A DNA stretch of 64,000 nt from Chondrosia reniformis (lineage: Eukaryota > Porifera > Demospongiae > Chondrillida > Chondrillidae), in the NCBI GenBank assembly GCA_947172415.1, contig OX359198.1, positions 1,891,401 through 1,955,400 of the forward strand. Reading direction: 5' to 3'. Of this stretch, positions 3,906 to 40,042 are shown one piece after another. The notes beneath the pieces were generated by a model. It was not told the origin of the DNA and searched no databases. It was given only the letters and a program-made list of their open reading frames with translations. Each line of letters starts with the position of its first letter. The stretch's first letter is position 1. A program made the translations under genes and the position numbers.

Positions 3906-4189
3906 AAAGTGGCAAATCGAAACAGACCAGGGACCGCCAGCTCAGTGGCACATCAAAAATGGATAGAGGCAGCCGGTTCAAAGTTGCAAATCCACAAAAA
4001 CATGGGACATCCAGCTCAAATATTTCAAAGTAGAAGGAAAATAGCCATGGCAAACGTAAAGCTTGCAAAACCTGTGGAATGTAGAAAAAATATATAATGC
4101 AACTGAATAATAATCTACATATAAAAGTGCATGTCAAACCTTCAAAAGATGGATCTGGTTGCTTGGTGCATTATTCTGTTCTGAGTAAT

Positions 4190-9640: not shown

Positions 9641-10525
9641 TTCACATGTACTGTACAGTCATAGAATATAACTCCATCCTGTACTAGTCCAAAGTCAATA
9701 CCAGAGACAGAAGACTTCAAAGTAAAGTTGACTGTCATTGAATCTAAGTATAATATTTAGTGTTTCCACACCTTAAAATATATAAATCAAATGTATACCA
9801 TTATTCATAGTCTAAACCTCTCACATTCCTTATAAGGAAATGACCAACCTTCCATTTCTTGTGTAAACTGAGGTATATTGGGTACCTCACACGAGTACAT
9901 GTCTCCAGATATTAGAGTGAGATCACCAGATCCTACACTATCAAACACACACTGGTAGCTCTCCCCAGACAACAGAGGAGGGAGATTGGCCACTATCACA
10001 TCCTGTACGTATAGGTATAATATAAGGTAAAAGATACATATTAATAGAAGATGAAAGTAATATATATTAAGAGAGAGAATGGAAGAGAGAGGAGAAAAGA
10101 GGAGCTAAATATATAATAAATAATATATACGTATATGTATGTATATTTATAATATTGAGGCAATTATATTGGAATTTCTTCATATATGAAATTAATAGGA
10201 ACATCAAATTTGAATTATATATACATCTTCCTATTAACTCACAATCACACTAGTCTCTCTTGGATAAGCTTTTTCATTCCCTGAAATACTCACAGCTGAT
10301 GATATAGTTACACTTAGACATTCACTGTTCTCCTGAACCCAACGAAGAGGAGAACTACTGTTGGAACATCTGGACACTCTGGAACACTTGTTCTCAACTG
10401 TACACCAACCACACAGTCTACCTCCTCCCATCACACAGGAACTGCAGTCTGTAAAGTTGGAACACTCTTCTACTGGAACACGATACACCTACAATCATGG
10501 AGAGGAGAGACAGTGAAGTAGATAC

Positions 10526-10798
10526 TCTCTCCTAACATGATGACACAGACACTCTCTCCTAACATGATGACACAGACACTCTCTCCTAACATGATGACAC
10601 CGACACTCTCTCCTAACATGATGACACAGACACTCTCTCCTAACATGATGACACAGACACTCTCTCCTAACATGATGATACAGACACTCTCTCCTAATAT
10701 GATGACACAGACACTCTCTCCTTACATGATGACACAGACATTCTCTCCTAACATGATGACACAGACACTCTCTCCTAACATGATGAAACAGACACTCA
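10526..10798. repeat. 27-base minisatellite, pseudogene A intron 3
   Basis: About 10 copies of the same unit as in genes B and C, at the same intron position. It shows that the seed repeat was present before the copies separated. Confidence 0.95.
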
Positions 10799-11334
10799 CT
10801 TCATCTTCAGTCAGTCCATACACATAATCAGATCCTCTTGCATACTCCAATGCTACTATATACTGGTTTGGTAGACACTTTCCATGTTTGTTCTGGCATT
10901 GATGTGTCTGATACAGGAGCAGTCAAGTTTGAAGTAGTGAACTGAATGAGTGAAAAATACAATTGAATATATTGAAATTGTAAAGTAAACTTTTTACCTT
11001 TCTAACTTCTCCCATTTCTGTTCCAATAAATATCAATGTTACATCATCAACTATAAACACTTTTGTTGAAGATACTGTCATTCCGTTGACTTTGAATAGA
11101 GGAGTTTCATGGACTGGTCCAGCTGTGGGATTATCTTGATCTTCAGTAGACAACCTTTGTGGTCCATTAGCACCAAATGGACTACTTTTCTCCAAGTCAC
11201 AAAATTCCTTAGTGAAATCAAAAATACATCAAAGTATGTGGAACTGCAACACAAAGTATTTACTATATGTTTACACTTTGCAGTCAAGAATGCAGTGGAA
11301 TGCATACATACTACAAGTAAATAAAAAACATTTA

Positions 11335-12115
11335 CAAAAATGATGTTGGAAGTAGGAATAGCAGTGTTCACTAATACATCTGCAAAAAGTATCGAAACAA
11401 GACACTGATTATATGATAAGGCTAATCATACAGAAGTTGCATATATATATACTGAAATTTAAGTAACTTATAACCATACACCTCTGTGTTTGGGCGCACC
11501 ATTCCTACTTGAGGTTACTCAACAACACTGCTATTCCTACTTCCAACATCATTTTTGTAAATGTTTTTTATTTACTTGTATTCCTCCTTTTTTCTTATTA
11601 ATATTACTTGCTTTAAATTGATTTGAAAATGTTCTTGGCGAAAATCTCGAAATAACGTCTCAGACAAGAGAAATGTGCCAAAAACCATGATCTCTTATCT
11701 AAAAATGGCGGCCGAGAAGACGACACATTTTCGCTTTTCATAATTAACCTGTTCCTGTAGAGCGCATTCGGACTTAGGGCTCTCTATTCCCTAGTTCGGA
11801 AACATTTATAACGATTTATAACTTGTACGTGCCCGCATAAGTTCGCATATTAGCGCTAGTCCATTTGACAAAAGAAGAAGAAAAAGTGAATTTCGGGAAT
11901 GGGCCTATTCCTGGTTAACCGCTTTTTGAACGCTATAGAGCGTCGAAAGACGTTTTGGCATTTTGAAAAGAGTGCATGAATGGCTGCGAATATAACCGAA
12001 AATCGCTTCGTTGGCGATTTACAAGGTGTTAATCGGTAATACATTAGATAGGGCGGCCATCCTTTTTTTCGGCCATTCCTACTTAGAGAGTACCGTACTC
12101 TCTGATAGATGGGTT
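11335..12115. repeat. Dispersed repeat in pseudogene A intron 1
   Basis: Explains why this intron is about 1 kb rather than 140 bases as in genes B and C. Contains an inverted repeat with arms of about 36 bases (11335-11372 and 11521-11557, caacatcatttttgta type) and then blocks shared with 25140-26130. Confidence 0.7.
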
Positions 12116-14084
12116 TCCTGCACATTGACGTAATCCTGAGATCCAAGTATATAGGACTAAGAAAGTATCTAAGACTGTAACTTGAACTGTATACAAGTCA
12201 ACTTACTATTGACTCTCCTGATACACATTGTCGCAATTCTAAAGTCCATTTAGGCCTTAGATTAATGTTGGTAGATGTACAAGTTGTAAATGTTACATTA
12301 GCAGCAGAATCAATTGCAGAAATGGGAAAACTACAAATGTTCGTGTCTCCTGTATCTGAGGCAAATACAGACATTACAAGTGTTGGCTCATCTACTCCAT
12401 CTTCAACAAGTAAGAAGTTTGCACTGATAAATGCATTGTCAAAATCATCTAAAATAGAAGTAGGTGGTTGTCCACAGAACAATCTAACTTCATACCAGCT
12501 ATCCCATTCACTTCCATCACACAATCGAACAATTCTGACAGTATCACGGGTAGTTTCATCACTTCCAACTGAATACACAAAGTTACCGACTCTTGCTCCT
12601 CCTCTGTAAGTTCTAGAGAAGCCACTTGATGTATCTATTTGAGGACTATCTAAATCTCTTGCAGCACTTCCATCAGAAAATTGATATTCTCCGTGATACA
12701 ATCTGTTAGCTCTGCTCCCATCTGGTCCACTTGTAGCTACAAAGAACGTCTCTCCTCCTTCAACGAAACCTCTACTAACAGAATATGAGCTAGTCAATGG
12801 CGTTCTAATATTAAGTCTCAATGGAGAAAGACGAGCTCTAGCTAACTCAGTCAGAGTAGAGCTGTCGTGTATCGTACAAAAGGCGTTCTCTTCACTAGAA
12901 GGTGTCCAACAAATGACAAGACGATCTTCCTCGACTGATAATACCATTCCTCGTGGAGTCGTACTTGTGTTCGAAGGGGACATCATCACGGTAGATAGAT
13001 CTTCTGATAACATGTAGACAGCTCCTCCCGACTTTTCATCTAACACGAACACTCTCCCAGATTCAGCTACCACTAGTTTGTTGAGACTACCTGAAGGAAG
13101 ACCTCCTCCAGAGCTAAGTTGAGCACCTGAGAACTGAGCAAAGGCTATAATTATCCAGAAAAAAAGTAACCTGCCATTGGGATTGTATACGTAGGTACCC
13201 ATTTTGTGCGACCTATAGCATAACGTATGAATGATGGTGAAAACTCAAAAGCGGACCTAACCAGAACTGGGTCCGCATCATGACTAAAAGACGGACAAAC
13301 GCGACGGACCTAACCCACATTAATCGATAAAATTATTTGAGTTGTGTATTATAGACTATATCAATCAATCAATCAATCAATCATTAGAGTGCACCGTGCC
13401 CATTGGCACTAGGGCACAGATTGGCCCCATGCATGCAGCACTTACAACAAGACAAAATAAATATAACTGAACCTTGCCTATACTATATATAGAAACGGTA
13501 AACATCGCCAGTTTAATAACAATCATGCACGTACGTATACGTACATATAACGGTATACATCGATCGCGAGTTAACAATATGGTAATAGAAGTTAATTATA
13601 AGATGAATGTAAAGTAAAAAATGTAAAGGTATAGATGATATAAAAATCCAATATGCACATAATGGTATATTATTATTTATTATTATTTTTATTATTATTA
13701 TTATTATTTAACGTGCCACATGCATAGCACTATAGGACAGACTGTCCTATGAGGCACACACCATCACATCATGACAAATAAATCAGTTCAACAAAACATT
13801 AAGTCATCAATCAAAAGGTCAACTAAATCTAGCAGTCCACATCCTCAAAATAATCTTAAGGATTGAGTGATGCTTGCATCCTTGATCCAGAATGGCAAAT
13901 AGTTTATCATCATCAGTGAGTCATCAAATCAAACCCCAGGTACTGGAGGGGGGTTCGTGCGAACCCAACGAACCCCCGATACGGGCCTGATACGGACCTA
14001 AACACGTGATTTATATTAGCACTATGGGTCCGGGTGGTCCGGAAAATAGTCAAGCCAATGAATGATCTTAATAGCGGTATTAAT

Positions 14085-14520
14085 TGTTTCCGTATTGACA
14101 ACATTTATGTATGTGTAGATGGTTCTGTATGTATCCCTATGGGTACTGACTGTGCCCCTGTAGTTGCTAATCTTTTTCTGTTTGCCTATGAGTATGAGTT
14201 TATGAAAGGATAACATCACCCTAGCTATTAAATTTTCCAATACTTATGGGTATATTGATGACATATTATGTATTAACAACAAGGATTTTGAACTGTCAAT
14301 TAGTGACATTTACCCCAAAGAACTTTAGATATATAGTAATATTCCTAATACCCCAGCCTATGGTGTCTTTATTTCACAACTAATTAGGTATTCCAGAATA
14401 TGTACTGACTTCTCCAGTTTTCGGGCTAAAAGTAGTATTAAGCAGGGTTACAAATACTTTAAGCTAAAATCAACCATTCCTTACCTGGCAACCTCTATAG
14501 CTAGTTAGAATCAAGTATAA
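14085..14520 (+). mobile_element. Penelope-like retroelement fragment (reverse transcriptase)
   Basis: Plus-strand frames give CIPMGTDCAPVVANLFLF, then YGYIDDILCINN, and QLIRYSRICTDF, the RT motif order of Penelope-like elements. It is a short, degraded fossil with several breaks and no recognisable ends. Confidence 0.75.
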
Positions 14521-14628
14521 GCAAAAAGTAACTAGTATGCTTAAGGACTGTCTTGTGTTACCCCATATTGTGTTAACCCACCTCCAAATAAATGTTACTA
14601 CTGTAAGACCTAAGGGTAGACTTATGAA

Positions 14629-15354
14629 AAATCTAAGATACCATTTTCCTACATGCTATATGCCTATTCTGTAAAAAGAGCCTATAAGGGAACTAAACCT
14701 AAAGAGAGCTTTAGATGAAGATACAGGAGTCTTTTCTTCCTTCTTTTCCCTTCTTTCATCTTCTTCTCCACTGGGTCAGACAGCCGTTTCTGGGAATTCC
14801 ACCCTTCATCAGTGATCCTGATGGCATGCCACTGATCACCATTCTTTGGAAGGTCTTCACTGCTCCCAGCCGCATATACTGAGAGCCCCAGTGAGAACAT
14901 GTCTGCTTTAGTCAAATATGTCCTACTTGTGTCTATAGTTATGCTTAGTCTGTTTTGTCTGTACAAGCAAGATTACTAATAGATTTAATTCATAAAATTT
15001 AATTCAACTTACATTCCTTTCATAAAGTTAAATTTCATCATGTGCATGTCTTAGTTAACATCTTATTTAACTTTTGGTGACAAAATAGTGTATATAAGAC
15101 CCCTAGATTTAGCATAGAGAGCCAAGGATTCACAGGAGATCAAGATAAAAAAAAGACAAAGACTCCCAGTATCACTGATGAAGGGTGGAATTCCCAGAAA
15201 CGGCTGTCTGACCCAGTGAAGAAGATGAAAGAAGGGAAAAGAAGGAAGAAAAGACTCCTGTATCTTCATCCAAAGCTCTCTTCAGGTTTAGTTCCCCTAT
15301 AGTTTCTTTTACAGAATAGGCATAGCATGCAGGAAAATGGTATCTTAGATATTT
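14629..15354. mobile_element. Foldback element with ~200-base inverted arms
   Basis: Left arm 14629-14835 and right arm about 15148-15354 are reverse complements from atctaagataccattttcc inwards. At least six partial copies of one arm occur in gene C introns. No coding capacity; the open frames across the arms are shadows. Probably a non-autonomous foldback DNA element. Confidence 0.75.
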
Positions 15355-17146: not shown

Positions 17147-17598
17147 TCAGTCCATTGACATGTATTCTTCCTCTACTGGAGGAGTTATGGAGCTTGCTGT
17201 ATCCTTAAGAGGATTGGTACAGTTCTCACTCGTGTTTACATACTCTTCTTCTGTTGGGTCTTCAAAGGCAGCATTCTGGATAAGTGTAGCATCTTGTACA
17301 GGCTCTTCAGAGACATTCATGTACTTTGTTTCTGCTTGCTCAATTCCAAGGGAGTCAATGACATTTCCGGTGTCTGTACCTCCTATAGCAGTGGAGGTCA
17401 TACCTTGTTTCTCATTTTGATAGTATCCAACTTCACCTTCCAATACATTAGAGGTGTAACCAGGATTTTTGGACCATTCAACTCCATCTTTGTCATAGAA
17501 TGATATTTCAGGTGGATCCTCACATTCATCATACTCTTCATCAACCATTTTCTCATAAATGTTACCTTTCCTCGATCCTTCTTCTTTCTGTACAACGT
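17147..17598 (-). CDS. Gene B exon 17: cytoplasmic tail with SH2/PTB-type tyrosine motifs
   Basis: Residues 1273-1422, acidic and low in hydrophobics. Tyrosine motifs: Y1287EKM and Y1418MSM (YxxM, the PI3-kinase p85 consensus); Y1332QNE, Y1365MNV and Y1392VNT (YxN, the Grb2 consensus); NPGY1320 (NPxY, the PTB/endocytosis consensus); also Y1295 in EEYDEC and Y1307. The acidic residues before several tyrosines suit tyrosine kinases. The consensus assignments are established knowledge; actual phosphorylation is inferred. The exon joins in phase 1, at the homologous position where gene C goes on to its GAP. The polyadenylation signal was not identified. Confidence 0.87.
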
Positions 17599-20500
17599 CT
17601 ACAAGAATAACAGAATGTACGTATATATTGCAACACAATTGAATATCAATCCTGTGTATATAAGGCATATATTCAGTATACAGTAATACAGTACGTATAC
17701 ACATACATATTACATATATAGAGCATTTTATTAATTTACAGTGCCTAATATGGTCACCTATTGTATGGGACCTATAGATATATATAGTTAGCCATTGCTG
17801 TATGGTGACCAGATTTCCATGTTTAAAAAACATACCTACATATTAAATAATATAGTGCCTATTTTTGGGAAGTACTAGTCACTTTAAGCAAGTGACTGCC
17901 TAAGAGAGGTAACCTTTTGTACAGGTTATAAATATAATATGCACATAGCTATATATATCTAACTGGCTACATACATACTACGTATATAAAAACACATATT
18001 ACATGTACATGTACACTTTTGACAGACAACTGTTTCACCCTCCTTAGGGATTATTAGTGTGGTATATTTTGGTGGTGAGTATAAATGACTGGCTACAACT
18101 TATCCATCATAATTAAATGAAACACATTTGTAATAAATGAATGAGGAGGTTATAGTATAAATGCTCACAACGAAAAGAGAAATTGCACAATATCTGTGTA
18201 AATGCTGTGATGAAATGTGAAAGAATCATTCATTGTAATATCCATAGAGGTTGTATAAAATGGCTGACATCCTAATTTGGAGGTGAGTGATTGGAATCGT
18301 TGCTGTACAGAATATGGACAAACGTTTCATTGGACATTATTGAGAGGTCACTGGCTATAGTACTAAATTCATAGAAAATATGTTTTGAAATTTCTGCTTT
18401 AAATTTATGCCCATTAATAGAGGGTTCATTGAACACTTGTAATAAAATGTTAATTAATGGTAGTATATGATACATGTACGTATATTATATAAGTATATAC
18501 ATATACGTATATACAAATATATAATTTATATATACAAACTGCTGTCTTCACAATCTCTATAAACTCACAAACACTACTATAATGACTATCAGGAACAAGT
18601 AGAATACAGTAGTGCTACATGCAGACAAGGATGTACACACTTGTACATTACTTGTGAAAGAGCTTACCCTGCATTTGAACATGCAGCACTTGCATTTGAG
18701 AGACGACATTCTCCACTTGTTGGTGAAGATCTTCCTTCTCCTTCTCGTGAGTCATTTTATCTTTCAATCTCTTCAATTCCACCCTTTTAGATTTCCTCCT
18801 CACATACCCACACACACAGCAGATAATAACAGTTATCAATATGGCTAACAGTATCAGAAATCCACTAACCACTACTGGAACTATAATTATAATTAGATTA
18901 AGGGAGATATTAATATCACCAATCACTACAGGAACACCGTCTCCAATTTGGACCTGCAAAGGAGGAGATACAACAAGTGAGTGTATACATATTAGGAGAT
19001 GGGTCATACTGTAAATTATCTACATCTTTAGAACAAGCCATGCTCATACACTTGTCTATTCTATATATTATCACAAATCCTCATGTACGTATGCCTATAC
19101 ATTATTATTATTAACTTCAATGTGTAATAATATATATATATACGTATATATAGACTTATATATACATACATTATCAGTATACGTAAAACATGCATATATA
19201 ATAATAAGATACACTTCCTCATGCAGCAGCTGCAGACTGTTCATGTAACAAAATGCAGGTGAATGTCACAATGACAACTACTGTAACTGTAATATTTAAA
19301 GATTATTTGGAGTGGTTAAAAAGGCTTATTATAAGTAATTACCACAACTGTAGCAGTAGAGCCAGCCTGACTATTAAGACTGTCTGGAGGAGTACAGAAT
19401 ATTCTTGTATCTGTTATACTCAAATCTGTACAAGGTTGTCCATTGACAGTGATGTTGTAATCTTCTTGCAAAACATTAAGAAAGTTTTCACCCTATAAAA
19501 TGAATAAAAATAATGTATAGCATATAATTTTTAGTTTGTGAAAAATTTAAGGTACATAGCTTGGCTTAATGACCACATGTTCTATTTGATTATTGAAATT
19601 AAAGCATTTAAAGCAGTTATTCTATGTAGCAATGAGCCTCTACAGTATCATGTTCTATTTATGTCCACCAATTAATTGAGCATTACAGACAAATTAATTG
19701 TTATTTATTCTTAGTGGAGAAGTCAGTTTATCTGAATATCCATGCACATATGTATACAATGTAGTACACATATACAAATTCTGTATATAAACATGCACCT
19801 ACTTTGCTAACATAAATTATTAATATATGTACACATACTACAATGATAATTTGTTCTCCACTTCCCACAACATAGTCAATTGATACTGGATTGAACACTG
19901 GATCAGCTACAGCTTCTAATGACTCTATGTCCTGTAAGTTTGACAATGTCTCTCCATCAAGTCTGAGACTGTAATTGAACTGATCTCCAACATTGACACC
20001 AGTGAAGATTGGCACACGACAAGCAACAACACTAGATGATCTTACACTGCAGTTCTATATATTCATATGTATATGAAGGAAAAACTTGTGTGAAGAAATA
20101 TTCGTAAATACAAAATATTACCAAAAAACAAATTTGCACAAACATATAATCAAAAAACACTTACAACAATCGTTTTGAAGTTAGCACTAGTTTGTAGAGA
20201 AAGTTGTGGTACTAAAGCAGCATCAAGATTATCACCATTCAATATGACAGTCACTCCACCACTAAATAAGAGAGAAACGTAATTAATTAATTACCGAATT
20301 AAATAGAGAAATGTAAATCCTCTAAAATACTGATTTCTAATCTATAATTTAAATGTCCATCTACTTGACTAGTATGTACATATGACTATAGTATGACTGG
20401 TATGATAATATATACAAACATCTGCTCACAATATATTCAATCATTTTAACTATATATAATCTTTCTGTATACATACCTCCCTTATTGACGCTTATAACGT

Positions 20501-23500
20501 ACATGCTTACTAAATATTTTAACTTACTGAGAACATGTTCCCCTTGTATAGAAATATGTATATAGTGGCTATTAAGTTTAAGCTACTTAGCTGTGTATAT
20601 GCTTCAAAGGCCATTTGTGCATGAAAAGTCAGGGGAGGAGAAAACTTCAACTTGTGAGCTTTTAGGATGAAATTGATGTCAATGTTAGGATCAATGAGCA
20701 TATAATAACACTTATGCTGCTATGAGTCCTATTAAAATGTATAATTGTATGTGTAAGACATTTAGTTAGTTAGTAAGTTACTGTTTTGTTTCCCTTGTTG
20801 CACAACTTGTAAGTACAAAGTAAGATAGTTAACTTTTCATTGCACAATAATTCACACACACTGAAGCTAACCTTTTAATGATCCTCCCATCAGCACTGTT
20901 GTCGGGATCAAACAGTGAAGTGACACTTGGTACCACATAGCTAAATTTCACATTGTTACCTCCAGTGTATATATTCCCATCAATATTCATACTGACATCA
21001 CCTTCACCTTCAGTGGAAGGTATTGTGGTACATGAGACATGTGTTGTGTTGATCAAACTGATTGAGAGGAAATAGAGAAATAATATAGAATACGCAAGTT
21101 GCCAACTACTTATGTAATAGACAAATATAATTACGCTAAAGTAAATTTGGAATAGAAAGATTTGCCTTTTTAAGATGATCAATTCTTGCCTTAGACATTT
21201 GGTTAGACAGTACATGTATATATATGTAACAATACTATCTTTTAAATTAAATGCTCTGGAAATAGAAACTCACTTCAAACTCATACAAACTTGTCCAACA
21301 ACTGATGCTGTAGTTCTCTCCATATTTCCAATATTTAAATTTGAACCAGAAATGTAAACTATAGTAGATCCAGCTGTTGGACCTCGCACTGGGTAAATCC
21401 CTCCAATTACTGGAGATGCATACATAAAGCTGCCAACCTCCGTGTTAGACCCAGCTAGTGATCTGATTATCATTATTGTTGTCAGACCAATGGAAGTAGC
21501 TGGAGGAACTCTACAGATAAACTTCTTTCCAGAAATACTGTTTACTTGATCAATTGTACAGTTATTTTGACCAATTTTAATGATAATTCCTTCTCCATCA
21601 AGTACTCCAAGATTGGTTCCAGTGATAGTTAAGAGAGTACCTCCTTCAAGAGGACCTGACTCTGGAGTGTACTATTGAAAAGTATGTATACGTACATATA
21701 TACATACGTACATATGTACGTACGTCCATCCATCTATCCATCTATATATCCATCTATATATCCATCCATCTATTCATCCATCCATCCATCCATCCATCCA
21801 TCCATCCATACATACATACATAGAATAGACTGAAGATGATGCATCTACATGCATACCAGTATCAACAACAGTTCCATTCTTTAAGGGGTCTCAGCCAATA
21901 ACCACAGCAGATTTGATTTTCCTTGAGAGGGAGCTAGGAATATCAATGTTTGGTTGCATGCATTACATTATCAACTGGCTGAGTTATAGAAACCATTTGC
22001 TAACTTGCACACAAGGACACAAAAAGCCGAGGCCTTTATACAATGTCCCTTGTGTGCAAGTTACCAAATGGTCTCTAACAGTCTTTTAGATGTATTCCAT
22101 TCTTGATGCAACAAATGAATGTTAGAGATTAACCCAATAAGACAAAGATTATCCACTTTAAACCAAAAATTGTAAATTATCCGAGTACGTACCTACATAT
22201 AGGCTTAACTTTTAATCCACATTTTACATGAAAAAAACAATTGACCTGATAGTTAAAAGTGCTCAAAGGCTGCAAAATATATCTACTTGCTAAATCAAGG
22301 GCCTCTGGAAACGTTTCATACAATTTCTTTACATACCCTTACAAAGCACTAGTGATGAGCATTATAGAATGCAATTAACACATGTGGGGTCTAAAGGTGT
22401 ATAAGAGTATATTTAGAACAAGTTTAAAACAACTTAATGAGAGCATTTCTAGGTTTGGGTAAGACTGGCCCTTAGTGGGGACAAGAATTTGAGACCTCTG
22501 CAATGGCATACTAAATTTGTAGCCTTAAAAAATTGGTATCACATCAATGATCTACCAAATGTACGATTACCGAAAAAATATTACTATTCTAAGCCAAACT
22601 TAAATGACAGATGGTATTCAAAGGGCACTTCAAGATGTATTAGAACAGAACCATGATAGTATGATATTTAGTAATTGACAGACCTTGATCAAATTCACAT
22701 ACAGAAAATCAGTAATTTAGCACATTAAAACAACAGCTTAGGATGTAAGTAGGATAGAAGCCAGTCTGGTGGTAGGCTGGCTTTTTACAGACTTTTGAAA
22801 GGGTGTCTGCTGCAGAGGAGTATGTGTTGGTGGGAGGATATGACAAGAGGTAGAACTTGGCAGAACTGAACATCCAAAGGTGCATTGGAAAAACTGTAGA
22901 CTGTGCAACCTTGGTGAGATTGAGGATAACACCCACTTTTTGATCACATGTCCCACTTTTAATAACCTATATGATGTAAGTTAATGAATGCATACACATT
23001 TACCCTCGATTTCATTCTTTGCCTTTTCATTCTATCATATCCTAGTAAACAAATCACCAATCATATTTATTATTATGTATTTCAAGCACAGATTCCTTAG
23101 CTAATTTTTTACCATAGATCTTTGTAGAGCATGCACCCCACCCCTCACCCACACCCCCATATCCTATACCTATCCAAGCCTGAAGAGCAATGAACTCCTA
23201 TATTCTTGTTTACCCTAACTACTGCAAGTGACTTATAAACCTAAACTGGTTAGGCCATCCTTACTAATTTCAGTTTTTGCATGGCATGTTATAGCAATAA
23301 ATATTATGTGTGTGTATTTAAGAGTCATTAAAAATGATACTACTCATATCACTCACAACTTATAATGTACGATTCACAGATATATGTATGTACGTATATA
23401 AAAGACTTACACTGTCAACCTCTGGTTCTCCACAAAGTGTAAAGTTTGGAGGTACTACAAATATTCCACTACCACACTGTCCTCTTAAGACACAGTCGGA

Positions 23501-26500
23501 GAGGTCATTACAGTATCCACAATTAAAATCTGAACCAACTGAGAGACAACTGGAACATCCAATTCCAAGTCTACTGCAATCGTAGAGTACAACTACAAGA
23601 CAAATCAGTTGAAACTGAAGATATTGACTAACAATAAGTAATACATGTACATACATAATGGTAGGTTAAACTTACTATGTTTAAACACAAATGCTTAACA
23701 AAGTTTCCATAGTGAATTTTCAAACATAAAATAGACATACATTGGTCTAACAATTTACCAATTAATGCTCCTTGAGGTTGGTCAATGAAAAAACTCTCAC
23801 TTCCATTGGTCCACACTAGGTCGATACTCACTTCCACTTCAGATTCTCCTTGAGGAAGAAGATCAAATGGATTGTTTATCTGACAAGCTACAGACTGACT
23901 GCTGTTAGTAGCAGTTAATGTAACTGGAGGAGAACCAGCTCTTTGGATCACACATTCATATGAGTAGCCAGAAATCTATACAAACAGATACATATTGTAC
24001 ATATTCTGTAGTCAAGGAATTAGATAGTAAAAGAGTGTGAGCTATTCTTGTCTTAGACATTCAACTACATATATATAAAGATATATGTTGTATAGATGTA
24101 GTATATTACATTCTCTAATCACAAGACCCTAATTCAAAACAGTATATGCAAACTTTATACTGTCTACTTACTGGTGCCACTAGACTGTTTGCAGTTAGTT
24201 CTAAAGTGACATCTGGATTAGTCAGTCCCTCATGAAGGTAGTACCTTCCATCCTCACTCATGTCATTTGGAAGGAACCTCGGACACATGTCAGGATCAAC
24301 CTGTTATGGACACAAACACAATTATCAACACTAGATGAGGTTCAAAGATGCACAAGTGAGGTTACTTTAGCACTCACGTTAGATGTCATTCCAGTACAAT
24401 TGTCACCATTTGTTCTACATTCAGTATCCACTCCACACCACGTACAAGTGAATCTACCAGTACACGATGTACAGCTGAAGGAAGAAGATACAAAACAATT
24501 GTATGACACACTCACCACAAACAAGTGATAACTTAGTGAACTACAAAGCACATCTAAGACATGAAGAAGGCATACAGAACTCACTTTACATGTACTGTAC
24601 AGTCATAGAATATAACTCCATCTTGTACTAGTCCAAAGTCAATACCAGAGACAGAAGACTTCAAAGTAAAGTTGACTGTCATTGAATCTACAAATTCAGA
24701 GATATCATATTACTACTGCTATACAATCAGGAGTGACTTAATAGTCAAAATGCTTACATCAGCAGAGTACTTTCAGTAGAGGATACAAATGATACAGTCA
24801 TATTACACTAGTAGTCCACATACATATGTAAGCACGTACCTACAATACTTAGTAATACAAAGACGACTAACTGATTTGATAGCAACAACAGATGTGCACC
24901 AAATGATACAGTCTGGGTAAACAGACTGGCTGGAGACTACTAACCATAATAAATATCACTGCCAGGTTGCTAGGTAATGAACACATACAAAGAATCATCT
25001 AAAATACAAAGCCTGAAAATCTCTGTAATAAGTATGAAAATTACATTTGTCACCAGTGGGATATGAGATGTGTTTATAATAATGATTAGACATTATAAAG
25101 GAGTACTATTCTGTCTTAGACATTCAACTACATATAAAAAAAAAAATTCTGAAATTTAACTATACACATCACTTCTATGTTTGGGCGTATCATGGATATA
25201 CTAGAAGTAGGGATCGATGCGCCCAAACATAGAAGTGATGTGTATAGTTAAGTTTCAGTATGCCACTTCTGCAATGTTAGCCTTACCATATGATCACTTT
25301 CTTGTTTCGTTACTTTTTCTAGATGTGCCAATCACTTTTATAGTGCCATCCCTACTTTTAACTTCATTTTTAAATGTTTTTATTTAACTTGTATTCCCCC
25401 GTTTTTCTTGTTAATATTAGTTTTGAAAGTTTTCTTGGCGAAAACTAGAAATAAAGTAGCAGAATAGACGATATAATAGAGAGCTCTAAATTAAAAAATG
25501 GCGTCCGAAAAGATCCCAAATTTGTCAAATAACTTTTCTACCGTTCTTTAACATTCAGTTTAGGATATTAAAGGGTCCATAATCGTTAAGAATACGACTG
25601 TATAAAGGCCCTGCAAAGCGACTAAGTAATTCGATCGCGGGGGGCGGCAGTACCTCCAATCTTTCTAACTCGAGTTACTTATTTATAGAGAGAATTTGAA
25701 ACTTAATTAAAAAATGGCGTTCGAAGAGGACCTAAATTTGGCACTTTCAAAAGTAACACGCTTCGGATAGAGCGCGTTGAAATCTAGGGTAGCCTATTCC
25801 CTAGTTCGGAAATATTAATGACGATTTAGTACTTGTGTGTACCTGCGTAAGTTCGCATGTTAGCGCTAGCTCATTTGAAAAAAGAAGAAGAAAAAATGAG
25901 GAATTTCAGAATTTGGCCTATTTCGGTTTAACCACTTTGCGAAGGTTGTAGAGCATCTAAACATGTTTTGGCGTTTATAAAAGCATGCAAAAACGACTGC
26001 AAACACACGAATGCAACCGAAAATCTCAACGTTGTTGATTTATTAGGTGTTAATTGATAATACATTGAATAGGGCGGCCATGTTTTTTTGGCCATCCCTA
26101 CTTATAGAGTACTACCATACTCTATGATATTTAGTGTTTACATACCTCAAAATATAATAATGCACATCAAATATATAACATTATTCATAGTCTAAACCTC
26201 TCACATTTCTTATAAGGCAATGACCAACCTTCCATTTCTTGTGTAAACTGAGGTATATTAGGTACCTCACAGGAGTACATGTCTCCAGATATTAGAGTGA
26301 GATCACCAGATCCTACACTACCAAACACACACTGGTAGCTCTCACCAGTCAACAGAGGAGGGAGATTGGCCACTATGATCTCCTGTACAGGTAGATAATA
26401 GAATGTATTATTATTGATTTGAGTGCGCCATGTGCAGTTGCACACTAGGGCTATATATATTAAGACAATTACAGTATATTGGAATTTCTTCATATAGAAA

Positions 26501-29500
26501 GAACATCAAATTTGATTTGATTTATGTACATCTAAATTCACTTCATATTTGGAAGGAACTTCAAATTTGAATTATATACATCTTCCTATTAACTCACAAT
26601 CACACTAGTCTCTCTTGGATAAGCTTTCTCATTTCCTGAAATACTCACAGCTGATGATACAGTTACACTTAGACATTCACTGTTCTCCTGAACCCAACGA
26701 AGAGGAGAACTACTGTTGGAACATCTGGACACTCTGGAGCACTTGTTCTCAACTGTACACCATCCACATAGTCTACCTCCTCCCATCACACAGGAACTGC
26801 AGTCTGTAAAGTTGGAACACTCTTCTACTGGAACACGATACACCTACAATCATGGAGAGGAGAGACAGTGAAGTAGACACTCTCTCCTAACATGATGACA
26901 CAGACACACTCTCCTAACATGATGACACAGACACTCTCCTAACATGATGACACAGACATTCTCTCCTAACATGATGACACAGACATTCTCTCCTAACATG
27001 ATGACACAGACACTCTCTCCTTACATGATGACACAGACACTCTCTCCTAACATGATGACACAGACACTCTCTTAACATGATGACACAGACACTCTCTCCT
27101 AACATGATGACACAGACAATCTCTCCTAACATGATGACACAGACACTCTCTTAACATGATGACACAGACACTCTCTCCTAACATGATGACACAGACAATC
27201 TCTCCTAACATAATGACACAGACAATCTCTCCTAACATGATGACACAGACACTCTCTCCTAACATGCATATGATGACACAGACACTCTCTCCGTACATGA
27301 CGACACAGACACTCTCTCCTAACATGATGACACAGACACTCTCTCCTAACATGATGACACAGACACTCTCTCCTAACATGATGACACAGACACTCTCTCC
27401 TAACATGATGACACAGACACTCTCTCCTAACATGATGACACAGACACTCTCTCCTAACATGATGACACAGACACTCTCTCCTACACTGTAAAAACTGGTG
27501 TGCTAATTTAGCACATGTGCTCTTTCGCACACGTGCTGAAATGACACACTTCTGCACCTACACAGTGCAATTTCAACATATGTGTTATTTTGACACACAT
27601 AAGTGTGCTGAAACAACGCACTTAACTGCTTATAAGCAGAATTGTTGACACATGTGCTATATTAGCACACTAGTTATGTGCTAAATTGGCACATTTCACC
27701 ACTTACACAGTATCAATTTGACATAGTGTGCTGAAACAACACACTTATATATATAAACCCTAAAAATGTATCAATTTGATACATGACAATGCATATACGT
27801 ATATATACAGTACAAGTTACAATATACTAAGGTTATATATATATATGTAGTGTGCTGAAATTTGAATATACAGTGGGCACTGGTTTAACCGACCTCGAGT
27901 TAACCGACAACCTTATTTAACCGAACGAATCGACTGAAACCAATCTAAATCGTATTCCCCGTAATACTTTAGGCCCTCGTATATCCGACCTCAGTTTATC
28001 CGGTTTATCCGTGTCCGACACAATTTTCTTATACAGATTTACAGATTTAGGTGTGCGTATATTTTTAACCTTTATTATCTGACAGTTACACGGAGTAGAT
28101 TAAGAAAGTTTCAGAGAAAAACGATCGAATGTGAGTGATATCCTTAAAGAATTGTCCTTGAAGAGGATTCCAACAGCACAAAGAGGAGACTACCACACCA
28201 CGAGAAGATGAAATAAGCGTTTTTGATTATTCACACTTAAGGTTGTCTATCTTATTCATTATTTTGCAACCCTTTTTATCTGACACCTGATTTATCCGAA
28301 ATTATTGGTTGAAAGAAACAGTGTCAGTTAAACCAGGGCCCACTCTATAATAGAACATTTCACACATGATCTAATTGACAGTTCAAAGTCCTCATTGTTG
28401 ATATAATGGATACATAAAAGGTCATGCATCAATATAAAAACATCAGTATACATTATTTAAAAAAAAGGAAAATAATATATAGGTCTGTACAGAAAATAGT
28501 TTGTTGGGGCATATGTACCAAATAGTGGAATTTAGGAGTCAGGTGAAAGTCAGAATAGACTTGTCTAAATCGAACGTGGCGATCTTCAATAAGAACTGCC
28601 AACAGAGCACAGCCATCTGAGTTTAATACTATCCCTAACATATTTATCTTGTATATATGTTGTGTTATTCTGCTCAAAAATATCACATAATTCAAAGGCA
28701 GTGTCCCATTCTGGATGTTGCATTATATTAGCATCACTGTGGGCATTCATTACTTCACTCGCTCTTCCTTTAACTTCAGCAACCACTTTCTGCACTAATG
28801 TATCCGTAAATGATAATACTTTAGCCACTGTAGGCTGTGTCAAACCCTGTTCTCTTAGGGACAAAACAAACTCTGGGGCATCCCAGTTATCAGCATTGAC
28901 CGGTAAAACTACGGTCTGACTTGTTTGGAGGCAATTCTAGATCTGGAAGCTCAGCAAAATTTGAGCTCGGTATTAAAGTGGCTGAAGCACGATGGCTATG
29001 TTGGAGGTGGGGTAGCTACTTCTTGAATGAAGTCCACTTATTAAACGAAAGCCCAGACTTTTCGTAGGAACATTGGACTAAAAACTGAGGTTGGTGCTGG
29101 TGAAAAGTAACAACATGCTTTACGTGATCCTCTGTCCAAGAAAACTGAAAATTACAAAGAGAACATTGAATTAACGCTCCGGCCAGTGTGCTATGACGTC
29201 ACTAATTAATTGACTAATCATATGCGCAAACGTTTATTTTGTAAAAAGAGCGGTTACTTTAAGGGGCGTAAAAAGGGGCGTTTCAGTAGCGAAGTTTTAG
29301 CAGACGATCACAAATGGCAATGGAAGATTACAGCATTAACGAAGTGAGAGACTGGCTTAAATAAAAGGGTATCAATGGCGATATTCAATTAACATTTACA
29401 GGTAAGCCTTTCAGTAACTTCCGTACAGTAATTTGTAAATGCGGGGTAACTTGGAACAAATCCTTACCTTCAACATAGCCGTATGAACTGTGCTGCAGTC

Positions 29501-32500
29501 CTATTTAAAGGCTCAAGGCAAAATTGTGTTCTACTCACTGTCTTTGTTGCTGACTTGTAAACAATTGAACGGGTAACGACTTAAAAGGGAAAGTATGATA
29601 AAAGGTTCACTTGTCGAACAGCCAGTTAACTTCTCGGAATATTTACATAGCTTCGGCGTATATATCCATCCTACGTTTTCGTTTTTATATCTTCATTGTT
29701 GAAGTGTAGGCTTTGAAGTAGAAATTACCGTTATTTCTCAATTACGCAATATATAAAAAATGGCCGCCAAAAACACTTTAATTCTAAGGTCTTAAGTCAT
29801 CTTTTCGATAATGTTAATTTACAAAATTCGCTTGGAGACCTTTAAATATATTATATAATAACGATTTATGTCTTCAAAAAGCTTCTAATAATAACTTTTA
29901 GAGTAGTCGGCGAATTTAGGTTATTGCATCATCTTAAAATGGCCGCTTTAGCGTTACTACTTTTAAAACGCTCGGTGCAGTCAGAAGGAGACATTTTGCC
30001 ATAATTTATAGTGCATTGATCACACAAAAGGCGTATTATAACGAATGTAGCTACACAGTCAGTTTTTTGTAAAAGATTGCCGCCACTGAAGAAATGTTTA
30101 CTTAAACATGAAGTCCATATAAAATTTGTATAGCTACTCTGAGGAGAAAATACCTAACGGATATTGGCGTTATTCTCATCCACTTTCTGGTGACATGTTT
30201 GGCACCATTCTGATCCTTTAACCTAGCAGAATTGTTCCCTACATGCATGGGGTAAGTTTTTTTCTTTTAAACCTTTATATTACTATTAAGTGTATGAAAA
30301 GATCATTTTACTGTATACATTTTGTCACCTTTTGAGGTGTGAAATGCTTGGAATGTGCAAAACAAATTCTTATGAATATAGAAAATGACATAGATGGTCC
30401 AGCTTTTCAAGAACCTATTGGCTCATTAGAAGAATTTAAGGATCTAGTGCCAAAGGCTGCCTGTCGATTAGAATAAAGAAGTACTTTAAGGATGACTTTC
30501 AGATAAATGGTGGTTTAGTTGAAGATGCAGTAAGTTTGGATAATAGTCCTAAGGTTGACTCAATTGACTCTCCTGTATTGTATGGTCCAGGTGAAGATTT
30601 CACCACTTCCACACTGATTCTTCCTTTAAAGCACAGCAGCCAAGTTTCAAGTTAGTGTGCATATACCTCTTTGTATTCAATTGCTTAAATTAATTGGAGC
30701 ATGCATAATGTAGGCATAAAAGGCAAGGAGAATGTTTACCAACTGAGATGGAGCTACCAACTCACTATCCACCTCAACTTCAAAAGAACATTGATACCTG
30801 AGTGAGAACTGCACTCTTAATGAGCCAGCAAGAAATCGGTTAATTCGTATCTTGTGTTATTTTTTTATTTGAAGGTCAGTACTTAATTCTTAATTGCTAC
30901 ATTTTCAGATTTGCTACATATATATATACAACTTATACACTTTATCTATAGGTGCAGAATCCAAACCCTGCCCAATACTTTGCAATGTCTTCTGCCACAG
31001 TAAGGAAGTTTCCTTAACTTCGAAGTACTTAACATTTGTAAATAGGTACACTATAACTTTTACTATTATTTTATTATATATATTTTTGCTGTAGTATAAT
31101 TAATCCTTTTTATTGGTTTTATATTTTTATTGAACTGCATCAGTCTATTTATAACCAATTTGGATTCATTGCATGAAATCAGGAATGGGAATTTGATTCA
31201 GTATAGCACATCATTAAATTGCACACTAGCTATTCAGCACACCTAAAAGTGTGCTGAAATTGCATGTGCTATAATAGCACACTAGCTATTCAGCACACCT
31301 AAAAGTGTGCTGAAATTGCATGTGCTATAATAGCACACTAGCTTTCAGCACACCTAAAAGTGTGCTAAAACTGGAGACATCCAAATAACACACTTAAGTG
31401 TGCTAAAATAGCACATCATTTTTTACAGTGTAACATGATGACACAGACACTCTCTTAACATGATGACACAGACACTCTCTCCTAACATGATGACACAGAC
31501 ACTCTCTCCTAACATGATGACACAGAACACTCTCCTAACATGATGACACAGACACTCTCTCCTAACATGATGACACAGCCACTCTCTCCTAGAATGATGA
31601 CACAGACACTCTCTCCTAACATGATGACACAGAACACTCTCCTAACATGATGACACAGACACTCTCTCCTAACATGATGACACAGACACTCTCTCCTAGA
31701 ATGATGACACAGACACTCTCTCCGTACATGATGACACAGACACTCTCTCCTAACATGATGACACAGACACTCTCTCCTAACATGATGATACAGACACTCT
31801 CCTAACATGATGATACAGACACTCTCTCCTAACATGATGACACAGACACTCTCTCCTAACATGATGACACAGACACTCTCTCCTAACATGATGATACAGA
31901 CACTCTCCTAACATGATGATACAGACACTCTCTCCTAACATGATGACACAGGCACTCACTTCATCTTCAGTCAGTCCATACACATAATCAGATCCTTTTG
32001 CATACTCTAATGTTACTATTGGTTTAGCAGACACTTTCCATGTTTGCTCTGGCATTGATGTGTCTGATACAGGAGTAGTCAAGTTTGGAGTAGTCAAGTT
32101 TGGAGTAGTGAACTACACAATGAAGTATGTATTATTGTTATATACAATTGAGAACATACATTAATATTCTTTTTACCTTTCTAATTTCTCCCATGTCTGT
32201 TCCAATAAATAACACTGTTACATCATTAACTATAAACACTGTTGTTGAAGATATTGTCACTCCATTGATCTGGAAAAGAGGGTTTTCATCCTGGACTGGT
32301 CCAGCTGTTGGATTAAGGTCATTTTCCGTAGACAACCTTTGTGGTCCACGAGTACCAAATGGACTACTCTTTTCCAAATCACAAAATTCCTGCAAAAATA
32401 GACAATTTTTAAACGTGCAGAAAGTGTTCGATTTAGTTGGGACCAAATGTATACACTTTGCTGTCAGTTGGACTAGTTAAAAAAGAAACAAGAAATTGTA

Positions 32501-33518
32501 ATTGTAAAATCAAGAAAATTGTACTTACTATAGAGTCACCGAGTTCACATTGTCTCAATTCTGAAGTCCAAATAGGACTTAGATCAATGGTGGTAGATGT
32601 ACAAGTTGTAAATGTAAAATTAGCAGCAGAATCAATTGCAGAAATAGGAAAACTACAAATGTTCGTATCTCCTGTATCTGTTGAGAATACTGAAACCACA
32701 AGTGTTGGTTCATCTACTCCACCTTCAACAAGTAAGAAGTTAGCACTGATCAGTGCATTGTCAAAATCCACTAATATTGGAGTAGTTTCTTGTCCACAGA
32801 ACAATCCTACTTCATACCAGCTGTCCCATTCACTTCCATCACACAATCTGACAATTCTGACAGCATCACTGATACTTGCATCACTTCCAACTAAATATAC
32901 AAAGTTACCAACTCTTGTTCCTCCTTCGTATGTTCTAGAGAAGCCACTTGATGAAACTATTTGAGGACTATCTAAATCTCGTGCTGCACTGCCATCAGAA
33001 AATTGATATTTTCCGTGATACAATCTGTTAGCTCCGCTCCCATCTGGTCCACTTGTAGCTACAAAGAACGTCTCTTCTCCTTCAACGAAACCTCTACTTA
33101 CTGAATATGAACTAGTCGATGGCGTTCTAATATTAAGTCCCAATGGAGTAAGACGAGCTCTAGCTAACTCGGTCAGAGTAGAACTGTTGTGTATCGTACA
33201 AAAGGCATTCTCTTCGGTAGAAGGCGTCCAACAGATGACAAGACGATCTTCCTCGATTGATAGTACGATTCCTCGTGGAGTCGTACTTATGTTCGAAAGG
33301 GACATCATCACGGTAGAAAGATCTTCTGATAACATGTAGACAGCTCCTCCCGACTTTTCATCTAACACGAACACTCTCCCAGATTCAGCTACCACTAGTT
33401 TGCTGAGACTACCTGAAGGAAGACCTCCTCCAGAGCTAAGTTGAGCACCAGAGAACTGAGTAAAAGCTATAATTATCAAGATAAAAAGTAATCTGCAATT
33501 GAGATTATAGGTAACCAT
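17147..33518 (-). CDS. Gene B: plexin-type ectodomain receptor with a phosphotyrosine-motif tail, no RasGAP
   Basis: Exons on the minus strand: 33518-32529, 32389-32177, 32112-31960, 26843-26598, 26382-26229, 24687-24585, 24474-24378, 24300-24172, 23975-23759, 23592-23411, 21671-21274, 21057-20872, 20261-20165, 20054-19839, 19492-19343, 18953-18668, 17598-17147. These give 4269 coding bases (1422 residues plus stop), phases consistent throughout and identical to gene C for exons 1-16. Layout: signal peptide, Sema, PSI/IPT stalk, transmembrane helix, coiled coil, then a 150-residue tail with nine tyrosines. RBD and both GAP halves are missing, and no GAP exons are visible anywhere to its 3' side. 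Likely binds the same ligands as gene C but signals through SH2/PTB adaptors. Function of the tail is inferred; a regulatory or decoy role is the alternative. Confidence 0.88.
17599..18667 (-). other. Gene B intron 16 (1069 bases)
   Basis: This is the intron at the junction between the plexin-derived part and the new tail. I looked for relics of the GAP-entry exon (AFTELQ-type) on the minus strand and saw none. Confidence 0.6.
18668..18953 (-). CDS. Gene B exon 16: transmembrane helix and coiled coil
   Basis: Residues 1178-1273. Hydrophobic span from about 1196 to 1225 ([13 protein letters not shown] onward) ending CCVCGY, then a basic stop-transfer RRKSKR. A charged heptad-like stretch follows ([20 protein letters not shown] and beyond) that could form a dimer coiled coil. 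The exon is 13 codons longer than in gene C but ends in the same phase 1. Confidence 0.88.
19343..26843 (-). CDS. Gene B exons 4-15: PSI and IPT stalk
   Basis: Same exon order and phases as gene C exons 4-15. PSI modules in exon 4 ([14 protein letters not shown]), exons 6-7 (CTWC) and exon 10 (CGYC); IPT strands in exon 11. Small length differences: exon 9 is two codons shorter and exon 13 one codon longer than in gene C. Exon 14 uses a donor reading gtatgt. Confidence 0.88.
21672..23410 (-). other. Gene B intron 10 (1739 bases)
   Basis: Contains a catc microsatellite at 21721-21815. Two overlapping minus-strand open frames at 22709-22956 show no family resemblance. Nothing else recognisable. 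Confidence 0.7.
25140..26130. repeat. Dispersed repeat with terminal hairpin, gene B intron 5
   Basis: Starts with a hairpin (arms around ctatacacatcacttctatg and its complement, 25159-25253). Shares many blocks with 11430-12115 in pseudogene A intron 1 (cttggcgaaaa, gttcgcat.ttagcgctag, gggcggccat) and in part with 15510-15780. Probably a non-autonomous DNA element; family not recognised. Confidence 0.7.
26878..27485. repeat. 27-base minisatellite, gene B intron 3 (3' part)
   Basis: About 22 copies of ctctctcctaacatgatgacacagaca with single-base and length variants. Continuous in origin with the array at 31432-31955; the two are separated by a transposon. Confidence 0.95.
27871..28345. mobile_element. 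Pogo/Tigger-like MITE nested in the CACTA-like element
   Basis: About 475 bases, with TIR CAGTGGGCACTGGTTTAACC at left and its imperfect complement (aaccagggcccact) at right, between TA dinucleotides. The TIR style (CAGT..., GGTTAACCGA-type) is that of pogo/Tigger elements. No transposase frame is visible. Confidence 0.75.
28500..29165 (-). pseudogene. Degraded zinc-finger transposon protein gene
   Basis: Minus-strand frames read, in order, a C2H2-like part ([22 protein letters not shown]), a region [17 protein letters not shown], then QDKYVR, and finally LIEDRHVRF and [12 protein letters not shown]. This order recalls, from memory, uncharacterised zinc-finger proteins repeated in fish, cnidarian and sponge genomes. 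The reading frame shifts near 28900 and the protein stops shortly after HMPQQ, so it is incomplete. It may be the element's transposase or a remnant of it. Confidence 0.5.
29314..30650 (+). pseudogene. Degraded SAM-domain gene carried by the transposon
   Basis: Exon 1 (29314-29401) reads [15 protein letters not shown] and has a TAA inside; it ends with a good donor (gtaagc). Exon 2 starts at 30382 after an AG and continues in matching phase: [20 protein letters not shown], then frame change before KKYFKDDF. This is the beginning and end of a sterile alpha motif. It is divergently arranged to the zinc-finger gene at 28500-29165. SAM recognition is from motif pattern only. Confidence 0.5.
31432..31955. 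repeat. 27-base minisatellite, gene B intron 3 (5' part)
   Basis: About 19 copies of the same 27-base unit, beginning next to the exon 3 donor. Each unit read on the coding strand spells nine codons (MLGESVCVI) without stops, which creates long false open frames. Confidence 0.95.
31960..33518 (-). CDS. Gene B exons 1-3: signal peptide and Sema domain
   Basis: Residues 1-452. The signal peptide ([19 protein letters not shown]) resembles gene A's, not gene C's. From QLSSGGG on, exon 1 differs from gene C by about ten residues in some 300. Exon 3 carries a five-residue duplication (NLTTP twice) relative to gene C. Introns 1 and 2 are almost or fully identical to those of gene C. Confidence 0.9.
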
Positions 33519-38509: not shown

Positions 38510-40042
38510 ATGGGAGTATTGCTTCTTGTAGTTTTATATCTCTTCCTACCATCCGTCTTAGGTCAACTTAGCTCTGGAGGAGGTCTTCCTTCAGGTAGTC
38601 TCAACAAACTAGTGGTAGCTGAATCTGGGAGAGTGTTCGTGTTAGATGAAAAGTCGGGAGGAGCTGTCTACATGTTATCAGAAGATCTATCTACCGTGAT
38701 GATGTCCCCTTCGAACACAAGTACGACTCCACGAGGAATCGTATTATCAGTCGAGGAAGATCGTCTTGTCATCTGTTGGACGCCTTCTACCGAAGAGAAT
38801 GCCTTTTGTACGATACACAACAGTTCTACTCTGACTGAGTTAGCTAGAGCTCGTCTTACTCCATTGGGACTTAATATTAGAACGCCATCGACTAGTTCAT
38901 ATTCAGTAAGTAGAGGTTTCGTTGAAGGAGAAGAGACGTTCTTTGTAGCTACAAGTGGACCTGATGGGAGCGGAGCTAACAGATTGTATCACGGAGAATA
39001 TCAATTTTCTGATGGCAGTGCAGCACGAGATTTAGATAGTCCTCAAATAGTTTCATCAAGTGGCTTCTCTAGAACATACGAAGGAGGAACAAGAGTTGGT
39101 AACTTTGTATATTTAGTTGGAAGTGATGCAAGTATCAGTGATGCTGTCAGAATTGTCAGATTGTGTGATGGAAGTGAATGGGACAGCTGGTATGAAGTAG
39201 GATTGTTCTGTGGACAAGAAGCTACTCCAATATTAGTGGATTTTGACAATGCACTGGTCAGTGTAAACTTCTTACTCATTGAAAATGGAGTAGATGAACC
39301 AACACTTGTGGTTTCAGTATTCTCAACAGATACAGGAGATACGAACATTTGTAGTTTTCCCATTTCTGCAATTGATTCTGCTGCTAATTTTACATTTACA
39401 ACTTGTACATCTACCACCATTGATCTAAGTCCTATTTGGACTTCAGAATTGAGACAATGTGAACTCGGTGACTCTATAGTAAGTTAACGTGTGTATAATT
39501 TTCTTGATTTTACAATTACAATTTCTTGTTTCTTTTTTAACTAGTCCAACTGACAGCAAAGTGTATACATTTGGTCCCAACTAAATCGAACACTTTCTGC
39601 ACGTTTAAAAATTGTCTATTTTTGCAGGAATTTTGTGATTTGGAAAAGAGTAGTCCATTTGGTACTCGTGGACCACAAAGGTTGTCTACGGAAAATGACC
39701 TTAATCCAACAGCTGGACCAGTCCAGGATGAAAACCCTCTTTTCCAGATCAATGGAGTGACAATATCTTCAACAACAGTGTTTATAGTTGATGATGTAAC
39801 AGTGATATTTATTGGAACAGACATGGGAGAAATTAGAAAGGTAAAAAGAATATTAATGTATGTTCTCAATTGTATATAACAATAATACATACTTCATTGT
39901 GTAGTTCACTACTCCAAACTTAACTACTCCTGTATCAGACACATCAATGTCAGAACAAACATGGAAAGTGTCTACTAAACCAGTGATAACATTAGAGTAT
40001 GCAAGAGGATCTGATTATGTGTATGGACTGACTGAAGATGAA
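38510..40042 (+). CDS. Gene C exons 1-3: signal peptide and Sema domain
   Basis: Residues 1-440. The first 18 or so residues are strongly hydrophobic ([18 protein letters not shown]), a signal peptide probably cut near G18/Q19. The rest is the ligand-binding Sema propeller; the family pattern is seen in the segment around VRIVRLCDG in exon 1 and in the closing strand [10 protein letters not shown] of exon 3, which runs into VYRVPVEEC at the PSI domain exactly as in other plexins. All three exons end in phase 0. The signal peptide is unrelated to that of gene B, although identity becomes almost complete directly after it (from QLSSGGG). Confidence 0.93.

Follow-up and report, generated by a model that had tools for sequence, protein, structure and literature searches.

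The window, meaning the whole 64-kb stretch of DNA analysed here, contains three plexin-like genes, designated gene A, gene B and fragment C. Genes A and B lie head to head on opposite strands, with the start of gene B about 5 kb from gene A. The features used below are the following.

38510..62325, plus strand: gene A, a plexin whose mature ectodomain is near-identical to that of gene B and which matches RasGAP and RBD over their full length; 27 exons modelled, with the join 57846/59457 provisional.
33444..33518, minus strand: start codon and signal peptide of gene B, whose DNA is related here to fragment C but not to gene A.
19343..33443, minus strand: exons 1 (from the mature N-terminus) to 15 of gene B, encoding the plexin ectodomain, which agrees with gene A at 1,078 of 1,146 aligned residues.
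18954..19342, minus strand: intron 15 of gene B, the 3' boundary of young A/B similarity; only a 34-38 bp patch matches intron 15 of gene A.
18668..18953, minus strand: exon 16 of gene B, encoding the transmembrane (TM) helix and a basic juxtamembrane segment; 95 aa.
17599..18667, minus strand: intron 16 of gene B, phase 1, 1,069 bp.
17147..17598, minus strand: exon 17 of gene B, encoding the 150-residue cytoplasmic tail and ending in a TGA stop, with two YxxM, three YxN and one NPxY motif; assigned from the gene model, coding score and motif count.
9641..13190, minus strand: fragment C, covering exons 1-6 of the ectodomain shared by A and B, with exon 3 frameshifted by 4 bp; similarity ends 12 bp past the exon 6 donor.

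Gene A is apparently an intact GAP plexin. Its predicted cytoplasmic part matched the Pfam families Plexin_cytopl (4.2e-159) and Plexin_RBD (1.3e-33) and scored 526 bits against the solved Plexin-A1 intracellular region; the alignment keeps LPLRFWVN and another 12-residue stretch, the two of which we take to hold the catalytic arginines. Fragment C is probably a pseudogene.

Gene B (33518-17147) was modelled on the minus strand as 17 phase-consistent exons forming a single open frame of 1,422 aa, phase-keeping splice sites being chosen wherever several were possible. The product would run from a plexin ectodomain through the TM helix and the basic juxtamembrane segment to a tail encoded by one exon. 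Pfam matches above cut-off comprised TIG (2e-28, three stretches), PSI (8e-10, three stretches) and Sema (5e-6, partial, residues 261-405), and residues 357-1165 aligned in a single stretch to the solved Plexin-A1 ectodomain (E 5e-74), so the Sema plus PSI/IPT ectodomain of a canonical plexin is present; among PDB sequences, plexin-A chains outscored MET. Pfam recognised no GAP, RBD or kinase family in gene B. When the TM and cytoplasmic protein of gene A was searched against the whole 64 kb by tblastn (E up to 1), the only match outside gene A was exon 16 of gene B, and neither tblastn nor a coding segment scan revealed hidden GAP exons downstream of gene B within the window or, for the scan, a missed exon in intron 16. 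The preliminary description had presented this gene as a whole plexin ectodomain and TM helix joined to a cytoplasmic part without GAP or RBD, which the 17-exon model, Pfam and tblastn bear out; its exon limits, phase-1 intron and motif counts were likewise all correct, and Y1365, Y1392 and Y1418 fall on the residues it had named in the 1,422-aa frame. Judged by its sequence, gene B is thus a plexin paralogue that looks intact, has no GAP and ends in a motif-dense tail. Weak Pfam matches in its TM region (TMEM154, GAPT, SCIMP and others) lay below the curated cut-offs, overlapped the TM helix and were rejected, and no coiled coil is claimed for the juxtamembrane segment, the best register of which was only 47% hydrophobic at a/d.

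The tail exon carried a strong coding signal, scoring 0.099 bits/nt in its own frame and negative in the other five. Every one of 3,000 noncoding 447-nt windows fell short of this score (maximum -0.012); they came from the same DNA on which the noncoding model had been trained. Of 77 open noncoding stretches at least 70 codons long, the best gave 0.036 bits/nt. Among 22 left-out exons of gene A, 17 scored above zero and 6 reached the score of the tail; five of the six left-out GAP-side exons scored below zero, indicating that the coding measure can miss real exons. Both parts of the tail carried coding signal, and in the segment scan the tail reached 44 bits, the best other segments reaching 7.4 bits in intron 16 and 13.5 bits on the same strand at 13.3-17.1 kb. 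With ad hoc weights, the donor of exon 16 (18668) ranked best of the 16 donors used by gene B and the acceptor of the tail exon (17598) fourth of the 15 scored acceptors, and exons 16 and 17 would probably be spliced in vivo as predicted; a strong-looking donor within the tail exon at 17404 could shorten the tail. Within about 750 bp after the gene B stop there was no AATAAA or ATTAAA, and two such signals follow gene A, at 62585 and 62704.

Searched against the window by tblastn (E up to 10), the tail matched only itself, indicating that gene A has no such tail exon here. No homologue of the tail was confirmed in viral contigs, prokaryote contigs or PDB sequences, collections that are not informative for animals, and a control search of viral contigs with the GAP piece of gene A likewise gave no match. 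The sole Pfam match of the tail, MCPVI at 14.5 bits, was far below cut-off and was rejected.

The tail holds YxxM motifs at Y1287 (YEKM) and Y1418 (YMSM), which we take to fit PI3K-type SH2 ligands, YxN motifs at Y1332 (YQN), Y1365 (YMN) and Y1392 (YVN), which presumably fit Grb2-type ligands, and an NPxY motif at Y1320 (NPGY), which we assume to fit the PTB core; this last site has no hydrophobic residue at -5, so that PTB binding may, on the same assumption, be weak. The earlier count of two, three and one in a single cytoplasmic exon was therefore confirmed. When the tail was shuffled 100,000 times, the motifs proved to be in excess singly (YxxM p = 0.029, YxN p = 0.014, NPxY p = 0.032) and jointly (p = 0.00012, that is 1.2e-4), for a motif set that had been picked in the preliminary description after the sequence was seen. 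The same motifs occurred once in the 1,177 aa of gene B before exon 16, not at all in exon 16 of gene B (95 aa), and three times, all YxN, in the 646 aa of the TM and cytoplasmic part of gene A. EEEY occurred twice in the tail (p 0.00035 by shuffling), acidic residues at -1 or -2 of tyrosine (6 of 9) were not in excess (p 0.21), and ITIM-type and YxxL/I motifs were absent from the tail. Its 150 residues include 9 Tyr and 36 Asp/Glu, with 21% hydrophobic residues and a net charge of -27. A single-sequence AlphaFold model of the tail had a mean pLDDT of 44 and a pTM of 0.15, low values that are consistent with disorder, although with no alignment behind the model this is weak evidence. Gene B thus has the multiple SH2/PTB-type motifs in a cytosolic tail that characterise docking receptors, in the form of a motif excess, with weak support for disorder.

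Comparison of genes A and B located two sharp boundaries of similarity. From the mature N-terminus through exon 15, 94% of aligned residues were identical, with Ks 0.067 and Ka 0.030, whereas in exon 16 only 37 of 77 aligned residues were identical and Ks was 2.08 (saturated); synonymous differences numbered 51 of 799 on one side of intron 15 and 37 of 53 on the other (Fisher 5e-28). Because of this difference in Ks, the TM exon stands as far outside the young block as the tail does, although the protein encoded by exon 16 of gene B is still of the plexin TM type (tblastn E 1.7e-7 against gene A). At the other end, DNA similarity begins at the codon of the mature N-terminus (38564 in gene A, 33443 in gene B). 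The upstream flanks of the two genes had in common only two overlapping matches (29-37 bp), both distant from the start codons, and there was no relation between the signal peptides, whereas gene B and fragment C matched over 93 bp at 82% around the start codon and signal peptide. Genes A and B thus combine a near-identical ectodomain with different TM and cytoplasmic parts, as paired receptors do.

By these comparisons, the young A/B boundary is intron 15 and not the intron between TM and tail, with a second at the mature N-terminus. The preliminary description had proposed an exchange exactly at a homologous phase-1 intron. Such an intron does separate the TM exon from the cytoplasmic exon in both genes, and the GAP module may have been replaced at intron 16 long ago, but the young discontinuity lies in intron 15, with exon 16 already saturated. 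Nor does exon replacement after duplication describe the locus well, since a simple duplication followed by a swap of the last exon misfits both the old TM exon and the second boundary at the mature N-terminus. The sequences point instead to old TM-plus-tail and TM-plus-GAP modules that carry a recently homogenised ectodomain.

The relatedness of A, B and C changed along the ectodomain. In exons 1-3 with intron 2, the odd one out was A at 10 sites, B at 18 and C at 115, whereas in exons 4-6 the counts were 15, 8 and 8 (p 2.6e-10); the change persisted without intron 2, the alignment of which to C is poor (p 5.9e-9). A and B were clearly the closest pair in exons 1-2, and B and C in exons 4 and 5; exon 3 had no closest pair and exon 6 only two informative sites. 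This switch is not explained by faster decay of C alone, and fragment C may have taken part in sequence exchange despite its decay. Divergence between A and B was also uneven in introns, with 23 of 565 aligned sites differing in introns 1, 2 and 6-8 and 209 of 894 in introns 9 and 11-13, while introns 14 (84 of 156) and 15 (89 of 201) were close to unrelated; introns 3, 4, 5 and 10 were excluded from these counts for their large length differences. Synonymous sites of exons 9-15 differed less (29 of 339) than introns 9 and 11-13 (p 5e-10), and those of exons 1-8 (22 of 460) did not differ from introns 1, 2 and 6-8 (p 0.65). Identity was 92.5% for intron 10 (173 aligned bases) and 86.5% for intron 4 (215 aligned bases), indicating that there is no smooth 5'-to-3' trend of divergence. 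The introns of A and B differ greatly in length, with large insertions in single copies.

This patchwork favours repeated, partly exon-sized gene conversion between the inverted copies, although low synonymous against high intron divergence could instead reflect constraint or intron indels. We consider it rather unlikely that a single recent copying, in which an inverted copy of the exons of A (or B) landed before an old TM-plus-tail (or TM-plus-GAP) module, made the chimera once. Such an event would suit the sharp boundaries at both ends of the block, the opposite orientation of A and B and the very different intron lengths with large one-copy insertions, but would fit poorly with a divergence that is so uneven along the block (between the two groups of introns counted above), with the shifts in A/B/C relatedness along the gene, and with a signal peptide that gene B shares with fragment C and not with gene A.

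We therefore give about an even chance to a reading with gene conversion, in which GAP-less gene B is paired with the GAP plexin gene A, the two having old, distinct TM/tail and TM/GAP modules, a converted ectodomain, and GAP against SH2/PTB output. Since the two ectodomains are nearly the same, both receptors probably meet the same semaphorin-type ligand, which would cluster either of them through the common ectodomain. In the response of gene A, the GAP domain would inactivate Rap/Ras-type GTPases. Gene B, which has no enzyme, would have its tail tyrosines phosphorylated by a neighbouring tyrosine kinase, and the phosphorylated tail could then dock SH2 adaptors, of PI3K type at YEKM and YMSM and of Grb2 type at YQN, YMN and YVN, and perhaps a PTB protein at NPGY. 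Still more tentatively, and with somewhat less expectation that it will hold, an early animal lineage might have kept such paired plexins in general, a GAP plexin and a kinase-free docking plexin matched by repeated conversion of the ectodomain, so that a semaphorin-type signal would lead to GAP-driven de-adhesion or to PI3K/Grb2-type signalling according to the partner that a cell shows.

The main functional rival to docking is a decoy or dominant-negative role, in which gene B would bind the same ligand or dimerise with A and so lower the GAP signalling of A, its tail serving trafficking or endocytosis through the NPxY and tyrosine motifs. We regard this role as unlikely. A near-identical ectodomain without the enzyme is what it predicts, and the Amphimedon relatives also have no conserved intracellular domains in the available text of their description (PMC6374515); a simple decoy, however, needs no 150-residue tail, and the excess of SH2-type motifs, together with the coding signal that each part of the tail carries, suggests that the tail is used. 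It is very improbable that gene B has no real product, whether through a tail exon belonging to another gene, decay of gene B or a mis-joining of the inverted copies in the assembly. The missing canonical poly(A) signal near the stop and the adjoining degenerate third copy C would agree with this, but all 17 modelled exons are open and in phase, no comparable coding segment occurs in intron 16 or downstream on the same strand to 13.3 kb, Ka is below Ks in exons 1-15, and the introns have copy-specific insertions of which an assembler could make use.

GAP-less plexins as such are in print, and the preliminary claim that no plexin of this kind had been described does not stand. Of six plexins in Amphimedon queenslandica, the available text reports two as full-length and four as having short intracellular parts without a conserved domain, and Plexin-A1 to A5 are treated there as descendants of one duplicated gene (PMC6374515). 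Gene B, with its plexin ectodomain and short intracellular part free of conserved domains, resembles Amphimedon Plexin-A1 to -A4, and its position beside gene A recalls the grouping of several short copies with full-length Plexin-A5 (PMC6374515). SH2 docking by a plexin has also been described: in the portions of these reports available, Plexin-B1 phosphorylated with ErbB-2 docks the SH2 domain of PLC-gamma (PMC4138210, PMC10452846). Gene B would likewise be an SH2 docking platform, but its tail would be the sole output, whereas in Plexin-B1 docking is added to a GAP domain. Measured against canonical plexins (gene A; Plexin-A1, PDB 3ryt, 5l56), gene B shares the Sema-PSI-IPT ectodomain, the TM helix and the basic juxtamembrane segment and differs in having neither RasGAP nor RBD and in its acidic, tyrosine-rich tail. 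With the MET and Met-LP receptor tyrosine kinases, as far as the same Amphimedon text describes them (PMC6374515), it would share a plexin-type ectodomain coupled to phosphotyrosine signalling, the latter putative in gene B; it differs from them in having no kinase by Pfam and an ectodomain near-identical to that of gene A.

The closest parallels for the pair are Siglec-11/16 (PMC5701461) and the Xenopus CEACAMs (PMC5112662), paired receptors in which, according to the text available, conversion maintains the similarity of the ligand-binding parts and the outputs differ. Genes A and B similarly have a near-identical ligand-binding part and different cytoplasmic parts; unlike these immune Ig-type receptors, they are plexins, and one output is a GAP enzyme. 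Choanoflagellates have TM proteins with YxxP tails, and phosphopeptides of one of them bound a choanoflagellate CRK-type SH2 domain in the part of the study covered (PMC5043372). Gene B similarly encodes a TM protein with repeated SH2-ligand motifs in its cytosolic part, but with YxxM and YxN motifs and a plexin ectodomain in place of YxxP motifs of CRK type and other ectodomains. At 6 h after LPS, Halichondria shows a rise in a putative plexin-group semaphorin receptor for which Amphimedon has a homologue, and the available account suggests an immune-type role of sponge plexins (PMC8242945).

For the short Amphimedon tails, the main text of PMC6374515, in the portion covered, mentions no phosphotyrosine motifs, module boundaries or conversion. 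Among the matches listed in the literature search, none was recognised that dealt with phosphotyrosine motifs or conversion in sponge plexins, and a search for sponge phosphoproteomics gave no match. A GAP-less sponge plexin is accordingly known; relative to the literature text covered, there are two additions, a tail of the docking type and an ectodomain-limited homogenisation with a GAP plexin, and what is new is a pair of near-identical ectodomains that lead to different tails. In the usual view, plexins are GAP receptors whose intracellular part is conserved. If the proposed reading is true, the output was swapped here while ligand recognition was preserved, in parallel with MET, which arose when tyrosine-kinase signalling was coupled to a plexin ectodomain. 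It would also give the published, unexplained short-tailed sponge plexins a testable function and extend the paired-receptor principle of vertebrate immune receptors to a guidance-receptor family.

The window also holds several repeats. Intron 3 of all three plexin-like genes carries the same 27-bp minisatellite, which begins at most 3 bp from the exon 3 donor, and this intron measures 5.1 kb in gene B, with arrays near both ends, and 120 bp in gene A. The arrays lie at these positions.

31431-31957, 26875-27483, 40045-40133 and 10520-10797: the intron 3 arrays of the 27-bp minisatellite.

Intron 16 of gene A contains, at 50926-51314, about 18 copies of a 22-bp unit similar to the genuine 3' splice site and the beginning of exon 17 (CCTTTAG/CATTCAC). 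The AG is preserved in at least two copies, which look like extra acceptors; the array fills much of this intron, and the homologous intron of gene B leads to the tail.

By eye, open stretches at 34500-36100 and 14000-14250, between or beside the plexin genes, resemble remnants of reverse-transcriptase elements; four short approximate peptides, three from these stretches and one from 28.6-28.9 kb, had no Pfam match at E 0.1. Dense imperfect tandem repeats of 30-91 bp, with long lysine- or phenylalanine-rich open frames, occupy 3340-5852. An interspersed repeat of about 120-250 bp is present in both orientations, also within introns of gene A, its copies being 75-93% identical.

14621-15354, 51542-51769, 56965-57214 and 40452-40573, both orientations: copies of the interspersed repeat.
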